58,079 nucleotides of DNA from Bacilli bacterium (GTDB lineage: Bacteria; Bacillota_I; Bacilli_A; RFN20; CAG-826): positions 1 to 58,079 of the forward strand of contig JAFUEZ010000014.1 of NCBI GenBank assembly GCA_017470115.1. Direction: 5' to 3'. This document shows, piece by piece, positions 7,665 through 56,920 of this stretch. How positions within the stretch are numbered: the first letter of the stretch is position 1; every line of letters begins with the position of its first letter. Under the pieces are notes generated by a model. The model saw only the letters and a program-made list of their open reading frames with translations. It searched no databases and was not told where the DNA came from. A program made the position numbers and the translations under genes.

Positions 7665-7682
7665 CAAATTGTCGATAGGTCG

Positions 7683-7745
7683 ACTCGTATAATTCCTTAA
7701 TTGGTAGGAAGTCTCTACGCTAAACCGGAATTTAGCACTACGAAT
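7683..7745 (+). promoter_or_regulatory. Purine (guanine-type) riboswitch aptamer
   Basis: P1 is TCGTA (7685-7689) with TACGA (7739-7743). TATAA follows P1. P2 is TTCC/GGAA. J2/3 reads GTCTCTAC (consensus GTTTCTAC). P3 is GCTAAA/TTTAGC. The specificity base before the P1 3' strand is C7738, equivalent to C74 of the xpt aptamer, which selects guanine or hypoxanthine over adenine. It controls the nucleoside transporter genes downstream. Confidence 0.88.
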
Positions 7746-7778
7746 GATTTTTTAATTTTTTAAAAATTTTTTGTAATT

Positions 7779-12006: not shown

Positions 12007-12968
12007 TGTTTATAACCTTCTTACGTAACGCAATTAGATTTTCGACAATCTTCTTATTTGGTTCAACAGGAGAAACAATTGTTGAAAAATCAGGACATTT
12101 AAATATGGGAATTCCAGGTGTTATGTGTATTGGAGCACTTGCTGGATGTGCAGGCATGTCAATTTATTTCAATACTTTGACAGATCCTTCTCAAATTAAT
12201 TTATTTGGAGCAGTTGTTTTAGGAATTTTATTTACTATAGTTTCTGGAGCAATTTGTGGTGTTATATTCTCATTTTTCACTGTCACTTTAAGATGTAATC
12301 AAAACATTACTGGTTTAACATTAACAACTTTAGGCGCAGGCATTAATTTATTCGTCTTCAAAAGATTAGAAACTTTCTCAAGTTATTTTGGAAAAGCATC
12401 AGATGGGTTTAGAAATTTGTTCCAAGTTGAAGTTGGTGCAAATTGGTTTACTGATGTTTTCTTATCATACGGAATCTTAGTTTATCTAGCGATTATTATT
12501 GCAGTAGTTGCAACAATTATTTTTAGTAAAACAAGAGTTGGATTAAATCTTAAAGCTGTAGGTGAATCTCCAGCAACAGCAGATAGTGCTGGAATCAGTG
12601 TCACGCGTTATAGATATCTTGCAACAATTATCGGATGTTCGATTGCTTCACTTGGTGGTTTATTCATGATCATGGACTATTTAGGTGGAAATATTGAATA
12701 CGGCCTTGATGAATATGGCTGGTTAGCTGTTGCAATAGTTATCTTCTCAATGTGGAAGCCACATTTTGGAATTTTAGCTTCATTTATCTTTGGTGCGCTT
12801 TATATTGCTCCAAGTTATTTGAATGCTTCTTTTGCTATGAAAAACGTCATAAAGATGATTCCTTATGTAGTTACAATAGCGGTTTTAGTCGTTACTAGTA
12901 TATTAAATAAGAAAGGAAATCAGCCACCAGAGGGATTAGGCATAAATTACGATAGAGAAAAGAGGTAA
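12006..12968 (+). CDS. Nucleoside ABC transporter permease 2
   Basis: The protein has 320 aa and is multi-spanning, of the NupQ type. It starts with the typical region GETIVEKSGHLNMGIPG and contains VGLNLKAVGESPATADSAGI. The start overlaps the previous stop as TAATG, with AAGGAGG upstream, so the two permeases are translationally coupled. It is the last gene of the riboswitch-controlled operon. Confidence 0.93.
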   Translation: MFITFLRNAIRFSTIFLFGSTGETIVEKSGHLNMGIPGVMCIGALAGCAGMSIYFNTLTDPSQINLFGAVVLGILFTIVSGAICGVIFSFFTVTLRCNQNITGLTLTTLGAGINLFVFKRLETFSSYFGKASDGFRNLFQVEVGANWFTDVFLSYGILVYLAIIIAVVATIIFSKTRVGLNLKAVGESPATADSAGISVTRYRYLATIIGCSIASLGGLFMIMDYLGGNIEYGLDEYGWLAVAIVIFSMWKPHFGILASFIFGALYIAPSYLNASFAMKNVIKMIPYVVTIAVLVVTSILNKKGNQPPEGLGINYDREKR

Positions 12969-12999
12969 AATAATAACTTAGTTATTATTTTAAATTCTT
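12969..12999 (+). terminator. Weak AT-rich terminator after the ABC operon
   Basis: The 9-bp stem AATAATAAC / GTTATTATT has the loop TTA and is followed by TTAAATTCTTT. Confidence 0.5.
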
Positions 13000-13022
13000 T
13001 ATTAATTTTTTGAAAAATCTAT

Positions 13023-13050
13023 TGTCTAAAACCTGAATGCGTGGTAAACT
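13023..13050 (+). promoter_or_regulatory. Promoter of leader / permease-upp operon
   Basis: TTGTCT (13023-13028), 16 nt, then an extended -10 TGGTAAACT (TAAACT at 13045-13050). The gap from the -10 to the leader ATG is 7 nt, so transcription should begin at or one base before that ATG. Confidence 0.55.
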
Positions 13051-13057
13051 TACAACA

Positions 13058-13168
13058 ATGAAAAATTTAGTACGAGCAAAGTTTAATGATAAGTTAGGTT
13101 GCTTCGGCATTCCTGGTTTTGAAGTCTCTTTTCTCGTCTATAATGTTTCTTTCTTTACTCGTCCTTAG
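13058..13168 (+). CDS. Putative 36-aa leader peptide of the permease-upp operon
   Basis: An uninterrupted frame starts MKNLVRAKF and ends FLVYNVSFFTRP with TAG at 13166-13168. It begins about 7 nt after the predicted -10 and has no ribosome binding site, so it would be translated from a leaderless RNA. Its last codons form the 5' arm of the terminator at 13156-13177 and its stop lies in the terminator loop. The final third is very rich in U and pyrimidine codons. This layout is that of a pyrBI-like attenuation leader. It is possible but unproven that the frame is incidental to an RNA-only switch. Confidence 0.5.
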   Translation: MKNLVRAKFNDKLGCFGIPGFEVSFLVYNVSFFTRP

Positions 13169-13185
13169 TGTCGAGTATTTTTTTT
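13072..13185 (+). promoter_or_regulatory. Attenuator with mutually exclusive hairpins before permease-upp
   Basis: The terminator is TACTCG (13156-13161) with CGAGTA (13172-13177), then eight T. ACGAG (13072-13076) can pair with CTCGT at 13133-13137. Alternatively ACGAGCAAAG (13072-13081) can pair with CTTTACTCGT (13153-13162) apart from one mismatch, which would block the terminator. An inner hairpin AGG-TGC-UUCG-GCA-CCT (13096-13114) precedes a U-rich stretch. No known aptamer was recognised. Confidence 0.65.
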
Positions 13186-13201
13186 GATAGGGGGGTCAAA
13201 T

Positions 13202-14767
13202 ATGGGAAACAACTTAATTTACCAAGTTGAAGACAAGCCAAAGTTTAGTAAACTCTTGCTATTTGCTCTTCAACAAGTCCTTGCCGTTTTAGCTGCTACA
13301 ATTGCAGTTCCAACGATCATTGGACTTCCAACCCAAATTCCTGCAGCTATCTTAGGAGCTGGTGTTGGAACAATCGTTTATTTGCTCTTTACAAAGTTTA
13401 AGAGCCCAGTCGTCATTTCAAGCTCATTTGCATTCCTTGGAGCACTTGCTAACGCAGTAGCCTTCGGTTATCTAGGAATCGTACTTGGTGCTATCTTTGC
13501 TGGACTTGTCTATGTTGTAATAGCATTAATCATTAAATTCGTTGGTACTGGATGGATTCATAAACTCATGCCAGCTGCAATCATTGGTCCTACCGTTGCA
13601 TTAATTGGTCTTTCACTTGCTGGAGCAGCTATGGGAGATATCACAAAAGCAACCGGTGGAAATATCGGATATGATTTAGTTGCATTATTCTGTGGTTTAG
13701 TTACATTCATGACTGTTATTATTTGCTCAGTTCAAAACAGATTTAAAGGTGCTAGATTAATTCCTTTCATTATTGGTATTTTAGCTGGTTATGCAGTCGC
13801 TAGTATCTTCTCAATATTTGGTTATGTTTTCGATGTTGATTATCTTAAACTCGTCGATTGGTCACCACTTGTTAACAATTTCAAAAATATTAATTTTACA
13901 TCATTCTTAGATTATCCACGTGTCGGTCTTGTTGAAGGCATTATGGAACTTGTTAACGGAGTTCCATCACGTGAAATTATGAACGCCTATATGGCAAATA
14001 ACGGCATTGTTATTGAAGGTGCTGCTGAATTAACAGATGTCGCATTACTTGAAGCAATTAAAGCAGCAAATGGTGGAGTTGGTCCACAAATCTTAAATTG
14101 GACAGGCGTTGCAACTTGTGCATTAGCATTCATTCCTGTTGCTCTTGTTACATTTGCTGAACACGTCGCAGATCATACAAATCTTGGAACAATTATTGAT
14201 AGACCACTTTTAGAAGAACCAGGCTTAAAGAGAACTTTACTTGGTGATGGTGTTGGCTCAATTGCTGGTACATTATTTGGTATTTGTCCAAATACAACTT
14301 ATGGTGAATCAGTTGGTTGTGTTGCAATCACAAGAAATGCTTCAGTTAAAACAATCTTAGTCGCAGCATTAATGTTAATTGGATTATCATTTGTATCACC
14401 ATTAAACGCATTACTTAGAACAATTCCAAATTGTGTCATGGGTGGTGTTTGCTTAACACTTTATGGATTCATTGCTGTTAGCGGATTAAAGATGTTTAAA
14501 GATCTTGATCTCGGCGATAATAAAAATTTATTTACAGTTGCTGTTATTTTAATTACAGGTATCGGTGGCCTCGTTATTAATATCCCAATCGGTGGTGGCA
14601 ATGTTATTCAAATCACTTCAATAGCAACTGCATTAATTCTTGGTATTATCACAAACAATGTTTGTAAGTTTGTTGAAAAGAGAAATAAAAAAGAAGGTGA
14701 AGAAACTCCTGTAGCTGAAGAAGCTGCACCAGCTGAAGAACCATCAGAAGCTAAAGAAGGTGAATAA
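13202..14767 (+). CDS. NCS2 family uracil/xanthine permease
   Basis: The protein has 521 aa and about twelve or more membrane segments. Hallmarks of the nucleobase-cation symporter-2 family are the N-terminal LLFALQQVLAVLAATIAVP and the central region with FAEHVADHTNLGTIIDR followed by GICPNTTYGESVG. The adjacent upp gene favours uracil, but a xanthine/uracil range cannot be excluded. The C-terminal ~25 residues are an acidic Ala/Glu/Pro tail. The start at 13202 is set by GGGGGG 7 nt upstream; an in-frame ATG at 13184 lies in the terminator T-tract. Confidence 0.93.
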   Translation: MGNNLIYQVEDKPKFSKLLLFALQQVLAVLAATIAVPTIIGLPTQIPAAILGAGVGTIVYLLFTKFKSPVVISSSFAFLGALANAVAFGYLGIVLGAIFAGLVYVVIALIIKFVGTGWIHKLMPAAIIGPTVALIGLSLAGAAMGDITKATGGNIGYDLVALFCGLVTFMTVIICSVQNRFKGARLIPFIIGILAGYAVASIFSIFGYVFDVDYLKLVDWSPLVNNFKNINFTSFLDYPRVGLVEGIMELVNGVPSREIMNAYMANNGIVIEGAAELTDVALLEAIKAANGGVGPQILNWTGVATCALAFIPVALVTFAEHVADHTNLGTIIDRPLLEEPGLKRTLLGDGVGSIAGTLFGICPNTTYGESVGCVAITRNASVKTILVAALMLIGLSFVSPLNALLRTIPNCVMGGVCLTLYGFIAVSGLKMFKDLDLGDNKNLFTVAVILITGIGGLVINIPIGGGNVIQITSIATALILGIITNNVCKFVEKRNKKEGEETPVAEEAAPAEEPSEAKEGE

Positions 14768-14769
14768 TC

Positions 14770-15429
14770 ATGTTAAAAGATTTTGATTTAAAGAAATATA
14801 AAAACGCAAAATTATTGGAACATCCTCTTTTAATCCATAAAATTACAAATTTAAGAGATGTTAATACTAAACCAAATTTATTCAAACAACTCGTTAAAGA
14901 AATCTCTATTCTTGAAGGATATGAAGCTTTAAGAGATCTTGATACTTACAATATTGAAGTTGAAACTCCAATTGAAAAGACAATTCAACCAAGAGTTCAT
15001 AAGAGTCAACTTTGTTTTGTTCCTATCTTAAGAGCGGGGCTTGGAATGGCAGATGGCATGTCAGAATTATTACCTGGATGTACATTCGGTCATATTGGTT
15101 TATATAGAAACGAAGAAACACATGAACCAGTTGAATATTATTGCAAACTTCCAAGCGATATTGCCGAACGTAATGTCTATTTATTAGATCCAATGCTTGC
15201 AACTGGAGGAAGTGCAATAGATGCTGTTAAGATTTTAAAAAATCATGGTGCAAAGAAAATTACATTTATTTGTATAATTGCTGCTCCAGAAGGTGTTAAA
15301 GCATTCTGCGAAGCAAATCCAGATATTCCTCTTTATATCGGTGTTATCGATAGAGAATTAAACGAAAAAGCCTATATTTGCCCAGGACTTGGAGATTGTG
15401 GCGATAGAATCTTTGGTACAGTTAAATAA
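14770..15429 (+). CDS. upp: Uracil phosphoribosyltransferase
   Basis: The enzyme makes UMP from uracil and PRPP. It has 219 aa, close to the usual ~209. It has the family signatures CFVPILRAGLGMADGM, the PRPP loop LLDPMLATGGSA and the C-terminal uracil-binding YICPGLGDCGDRIFGT. It starts 2 nt after the permease stop, so uptake and phosphoribosylation of the base are coupled in one operon under the attenuator leader. Confidence 0.96.
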   Translation: MLKDFDLKKYKNAKLLEHPLLIHKITNLRDVNTKPNLFKQLVKEISILEGYEALRDLDTYNIEVETPIEKTIQPRVHKSQLCFVPILRAGLGMADGMSELLPGCTFGHIGLYRNEETHEPVEYYCKLPSDIAERNVYLLDPMLATGGSAIDAVKILKNHGAKKITFICIIAAPEGVKAFCEANPDIPLYIGVIDRELNEKAYICPGLGDCGDRIFGTVK

Positions 15430-28416: not shown

Positions 28417-28770
28417 CATTTCAGTCCATGCAATCGCTGGTTCCTTAGTGAATTAGAGGAAAGTCCATGCTCGCACATTCTGCGATGAATGTAGTGATTA
28501 AGCTAACTTAAAAAATAAGGTTAGGCACTTTGGAGAAAGTGACGGCGAATTGAATCCTAAAAGGTAACTCATGGTGAAGATTTGTAACGTGCCACAGAGA
28601 CGAATTTATTTGAAAAAATAAAATGAAACGATGGTAAACCCCTTAAGCGAGAAACTCAAAATTAGGTAGAGGAAATCGAAAAGGAGAAGTGAATCTGATT
28701 CGATAAGCACTTGTGCTTAGATAAATGATTGCATAAAACATAACATGGCTTACGGACTGAAAACTCATTC
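28417..28770 (+). ncRNA. rnpB: RNase P RNA
   Basis: This is the catalytic RNA that matures tRNA 5' ends. The outer P1 helix pairs TTTCAGTCC (28419-28427) with GGACTGAAA (28754-28762). Universally conserved blocks are present: AGAGGAAAGTCCATGCTCGC near 28456, GCCACAGAGACG, GAAACGATGGTAAACCCC, and near the end AACATGGCTTACGGACTG. The content and the gpsB linkage fit a Firmicutes type B RNA. Ends are approximate. Confidence 0.95.
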
Positions 28771-56802: not shown

Positions 56803-56920
56803 AATCTTGCTTCAGGGATAGGTGAAATTCCTTATTGGCGGTGATACCCCGCGAGATTTGTTTCAAGAATAGGTGCAATTCCTATGGCAACAGTATAGTC
56901 TGGATGGAAGAAGTGATTTT
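56803..56920 (+). promoter_or_regulatory. FMN riboswitch
   Basis: Conserved blocks appear in order: CTTCAGGG-like start (TTCAGGGATAGG), GTGAAATTCC, GGCGGTGAT, CCCCGCGAG, AGGTGCAATTCC and the closing ACAGTATAGTCTGGATGGAAG (given in parts). P1 pairs TGCTTC with GAAG. A TATAAT at 56797-56802 overlaps its upstream edge as a possible -10. It controls ribU directly downstream. Confidence 0.95.

Follow-up and report, generated by a model that had tools for sequence, protein, structure and literature searches.

How is uracil salvage controlled in a Firmicute that seems to lack PyrR? PyrR is generally credited with pyrimidine control in Firmicutes, a group in which ribosome-coupled attenuation is considered rare. 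The stretch of DNA analysed here (the window, 58,079 nucleotides from an uncultured gut-type bacterium of the Bacilli) carries an operon for an NCS2 permease and uracil phosphoribosyltransferase (upp) behind a leader in which a short open reading frame runs into an intrinsic terminator. The initial annotation read this as UTP-sensitive attenuation of the kind seen at Escherichia coli pyrBI, with an RNA-only switch as the alternative. From comparison with related leaders, we put the probability that the leader attenuates transcription through ribosome coupling as in pyrBI, sensing UTP and possibly CTP, at about 0.8.

Organization of the permease-upp leader

The permease-upp operon (13202-15429) follows a leader of ~130 nt that has an extended -10 promoter to itself. 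A hairpin near 12966-12992, belonging to the nucleoside-type ABC operon upstream, sets this leader apart from that operon. The promoter, frame, terminator, UUCG hairpin and the ACGAG and CUCGU motifs all lie where the initial annotation had placed them. The parts are as follows.

13022-13050, + strand: promoter, with -35 TTGTCT (13022-13027), a 17-nt spacer and extended -10 TGGTAAACT (hexamer 13045-13050); from the sequence
13058-13168, + strand: leader peptide frame of 36 codons, MKNLVRAKFNDKLGCFGIPGFEVSFLVYNVSFFTRP, with its TAG (13166-13168) in the terminator loop; from the sequence and relatives
13096-13114, + strand: UUCG hairpin 5' of the pyrimidine-rich tract, a possible pause hairpin; from folding
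13115-13155, + strand: pyrimidine-rich tract, a proposed slow zone for RNA polymerase; from composition
13156-13185, + strand: intrinsic terminator (attenuator), TACTCGTC-CTTAGT-GTCGAGTA followed by T8; from sequence, folding and relatives
13189-13196, + strand: Shine-Dalgarno (SD) sequence of the permease gene, AGGGGGGT; from the sequence
13202-14767, + strand: NCS2 nucleobase permease, probably for uracil, since upp comes immediately after it in the window and in most relatives
14770-15429, + strand: upp, uracil phosphoribosyltransferase (TIGR01091, 253 bits; cut-off 208)

An intrinsic terminator thus stands between the promoter and the first structural gene, as in pyrBI-type systems. Its arms (13156-13163 and 13170-13177) contain one T-T mismatch and are followed by the T8 run at 13178-13185; ACGAG lies at 13072-13076 and CUCGU at 13133-13137. 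From the terminator hairpin to the permease start codon there are 24 nt in the window, and the corresponding spacing across the family is merely 20-37 nt, so that no second promoter fits 3' of the terminator. An extended -10 box of the TG(A/G)TAAAGT type is retained in most family relatives in a comparison of promoters, and upp lies 3' of the permease in most loci whose sequence extends far enough (exceptions include L020, L030, L031 and L064).

The leader frame and its stop position are retained in relatives

The window by itself is no proof of translation, since an ATG frame of 20-50 codons ending at the terminator arises in ~14% of shuffled versions of its leader, and the fold of the complete leader is only marginally more stable than that of shuffles (z = -1.4). 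Because the window alone hardly exceeds chance, we gathered the leaders of NCS2 relatives, both within the window's family (Bacilli) and among Clostridia, leaving out by hand those with the terminator of an upstream gene and those with a PyrR element. This yielded 46 leaders with a premature terminator, which were scored for a frame of 20-50 codons ending at the terminator, with the expectation taken from dinucleotide shuffling of single leaders. Such a frame was found in 41 of the 46 leaders, related genomes included, against 5.7 expected, and a frame together with a ribosome-binding site in 37 (0.7 expected). Of the five exceptions, two (L037 and L039) turned out to be leaders of the PyrR type. 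The picture was similar in a Clostridia family added afterwards (43 genomes around L059), where 22/25 leaders have the frame against 0.5 expected from mononucleotide shuffles. About 18 of these leaders are new: L287 and L288 correspond to the loci already listed as L059 and L060, and the leaders of L062 and L061 recur as L294 and L296. One exception in this sample, L290, has a PyrR motif visible by eye.

The leader stops overlap the terminator arm in 80% of cases, at a median position of +1, whereas among ordinary pairs of a long ORF and a terminator in the same DNA (n = 184) the median stop falls 18 nt short of the arm and 8% of stops overlap it (p = 4e-21). The window locus (L018 in our set) and the leaders L019 and L042 all have exactly 36 codons, a TAG in the same loop and the same terminator. 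A search of relatives with the leader DNA showed that L005 shares the terminator, the other matches being mostly AT-rich noise. Between genera the peptide sequence diverges while its length and stop position are retained, and the terminator arms likewise vary in sequence with their pairing retained; among seven close relatives the pooled pN/pS is ~0.5. Taken with the pyrimidine-rich tract described below, this stop placement, the retained length of otherwise divergent peptides and the pN/pS value fit a frame that is kept for being translated and for where it lies, and not for the protein it encodes. The proposal of a pyrBI-like leader peptide is thereby strengthened, its homologues keeping frame, stop position and terminator, the last of which had been named as a check on attenuation itself. 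In a single case upstream of the permease (L022, in genome G092), a leader frame of 48 codons extends across the entire terminator, like that of E. coli PyrL.

A pyrimidine-rich tract precedes the terminator

In all 41 leaders with a frame, the last 40 nt before the terminator are pyrimidine-rich (70%, as compared with 45% in the frame's 5' part), and T content rises from 27% earlier in the frame to 45%. The corresponding 40 nt of the window are 72% pyrimidine and 55% T, and E. coli pyrL, fetched for comparison, likewise has 72% pyrimidine before its terminator. The stretch that the initial annotation called U-rich is therefore T-rich, as described, but is better termed pyrimidine-rich than purely U-rich; C as well as U is abundant in the family tract, so that CTP may also be a signal. 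We propose the tract as a pause region for RNA polymerase.

Hairpins at the position of the UUCG hairpin average -8.4 kcal/mol in the window's family against -5.2 in shuffles, although the window's own hairpin is not clearly stronger than expected (-5.5 against -4.6 kcal/mol). Clostridia leaders, compared with shuffles in the same way, have no structure beyond the terminator and no hairpin before the tract. We therefore discarded a pause hairpin as a general feature; as its equivalents are lacking in Clostridia, the UUCG hairpin can be an accessory at most.

The leader frame alternates with a PyrR element among relatives

In 13 relatives, two of them (G099 and G118) within the window's own family, a PyrR-type element occupies the same place before the same permease. 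All 13 genomes encode pyrR, as compared with 6 of the 39 genomes with a leader peptide (Fisher 4e-8, uncorrected for ancestry). The earlier remark that Firmicutes usually use PyrR was thus apt, since relatives with PyrR do use PyrR loops at this very gene.

Rfam under-detects the PyrR-type elements of this clade: those of L190, L192, L195, L203, L212, L257, L279-L281, L283 and L284 either go undetected or reach no more than 43 bits, where the RF00515 gathering score is 54. We therefore built a clade-specific sequence model (R1, 39 positions) from clade PyrR elements, which finds such elements including those of L212, L037 and L039, none of which was used in building it. This model finds no PyrR element in the window, nor in any leader-peptide locus that was searched, and RF00515 gives none in the window locus at E up to 1, in line with the first reading of the leader as having no PyrR loop.

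In the window genome (96% complete) we found no PyrR and no pyrB match; among the PF00156 proteins of this genome are hpt, xpt, apt and upp, and we saw no pyrE in that group. Given these three absences, the organism probably depends on uracil uptake. A pyrL-like leader before pyrimidine biosynthesis genes was also sought and set aside: none was present in the operons fetched from two leader-bearing genomes (G065 and G281), a point against the pyrBI-type reading, and in G287 and G289 a PyrR-type leader precedes pyrR. That PyrR element and leader peptide replace each other before one gene points to pyrimidine sensing by the leader; this exchange is the best evidence for such sensing, which we consider likely.

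Other explanations for the leader

Could the frame be an accident of an RNA-only switch, based on an unrecognised aptamer or on an ACGAG antiterminator, as the initial annotation had allowed? The ACGAG-CUCGU pairing is present in the lowest-energy fold, and terminators of this sort often sit behind riboswitches. Across 41 leaders, however, pairing of the leader to the two terminator arms is at the level of shuffled sequences (mean z -0.12 and -0.20), ACGAG is not retained in the closest relatives L019 and L042, and the leader matches no Rfam model at gathering scores, nor any described riboswitch class. With no pairing above the shuffled level, both the ACGAG switch and a riboswitch-like antiterminator lack support. 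With the Clostridia leaders unstructured beyond the terminator and the frame conserved far above chance, we gave up both forms of this reading as very unlikely. The stop placement bears on another explanation, in which an ordinary small gene is followed by its own terminator and the permease is expressed by constitutive leak-through, with no regulation. Terminators in Bacillus subtilis do lie a few nucleotides past stop codons (PMC7858274), yet ordinary genes in the same DNA stop well ahead of the arm and seldom overlap it. Peptides that are not conserved between genera, a family spacing with no room for a downstream promoter, and PyrR attenuators in the same place in relatives likewise make an unregulated gene improbable.

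It is also very unlikely, we think, that the leader is a ribosome-coupled attenuator responding to some other signal, namely an amino acid, general translation speed or a ribosome-stalling drug, even though its architecture is common to leader-peptide systems such as the hisS leaders (PMC2965389) and bmrCD (PMC4191407). No codon run for a regulating amino acid is shared among relatives, and no single-codon run is common to the leader peptides listed in either leader sample; the excess of Phe, Ser, Leu and Ile follows from their pyrimidine-rich codons. Nor is there an antiterminator for a stalled ribosome to release, and the operon serves uracil salvage and alternates with PyrR control. Pyrimidine-sensing, ribosome-coupled attenuation thus remains our preferred reading, the architecture itself being very probably that of a ribosome-coupled attenuator.

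Start of the leader peptide

In the window, the ATG of the leader frame (13058) lies 7 nt after the -10 box and has no SD sequence, whereas in most family relatives the ATG follows the -10 by ~18-24 nt and has one. The leaderless start originally proposed thus appears to hold for the window and does not extend to most of its relatives. Among the same-genus genomes sampled there was no congener with a permease-upp operon with which to compare this SD-less start. Two further genes in the window with protein-family matches, mnmG (54200) and a CCA-adding-type gene (24852), lack an SD and have TATAAT-like -10 boxes ending 7 and 10 nt ahead of the ATG; since they share this arrangement, leaderless starts seem usable in the organism. 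A third ORF has a similar look (reverse-complement offset 30152, at ~27.2-27.9 kb of the window on the minus strand).

A proposed mechanism and its relation to known systems

With pyrimidine nucleotides plentiful, RNA polymerase would move quickly through the pyrimidine-rich end of the leader gene, so that the terminator hairpin would form before the first ribosome arrives and transcription of permease and upp would stop. When UTP, and perhaps CTP, is scarce, the polymerase would slow in the tract, allowing the ribosome on the leader peptide to catch up and to reach the stop codon in the 5' side or loop of the terminator. Its footprint would then cover the 5' arm, and transcription would read through by ribosome occlusion of the terminator. 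Coupling is not to be taken for granted in Firmicutes, because the RNA polymerase of B. subtilis outruns its ribosomes (reviewed in PMC7858274). In a host of this kind termination might be the default, with scarcity restoring coupling.

The arrangement resembles E. coli pyrBI in its short frame overlapping an intrinsic terminator (translated in pyrBI, predicted to be so here, where its conservation suggests that it brings a ribosome onto the terminator), in the pyrimidine operon downstream, in the tract just before the terminator, where composition predicts pausing, and in requiring no alternative antiterminator hairpin. It differs in that the stop usually lies in the 5' arm or loop of the terminator whereas that of PyrL lies beyond it, in the gene controlled (uracil permease-upp), in its Firmicute host and, in the window, in its apparently leaderless start; no sequence homology to pyrL is claimed. 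PyrR-binding attenuators (RF00515) likewise place a premature terminator before pyrimidine genes, but need PyrR and an RNA site and no leader frame, and neither protein nor site was found for the window. In the leader-peptide attenuators of Firmicutes, such as the hisS/hisZ leaders and bmrCD of B. subtilis, ribosome position in a short frame also decides termination in a Gram-positive host, although these sense codons or drugs through alternative RNA hairpins, of which none is seen here.

No description of such a leader upstream of a Firmicute uracil permease turned up in the literature consulted, mainly that outside subscription journals; pyrBI-type control is known from E. coli, and by this measure the leader would be new to Firmicutes. 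Attenuation of this type has probably evolved independently and is distributed over Bacilli and Clostridia; an origin independent of enterobacterial pyrL seems the more likely, and the peptides are too short and divergent for comparison. We lean, with some reserve, towards a fuller scenario that combines an independent Firmicute origin, exchange with PyrR at one gene, a default off state until scarcity restores coupling and, in the window, operation from a leaderless mRNA. Similar leaders may be spotted by a simple rule: a short frame, a stop in the terminator arm and a pyrimidine-rich tract before that arm.

Further features of the window and of related leaders

The window permease is absent from all same-genus genomes sampled and is 84% identical to that of G107, from another genus, making a transfer between genera possible. 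Elsewhere in the window we noted a purine riboswitch (7665-7760, 51.6 bits) in front of the genes for the BMP-type lipoprotein and ABC transporter upstream of the permease-upp operon, class B RNase P RNA (28422-28756) and an FMN riboswitch (56804-56919). Among the relatives, L077, L092 and L098 share a near-identical block, TCTTTAAACTCTTCTTCTTTAAA (SLNSSSLN), around which their frames have diverged and changed in length without loss of reading frame, and this block is a candidate pause or arrest sequence.
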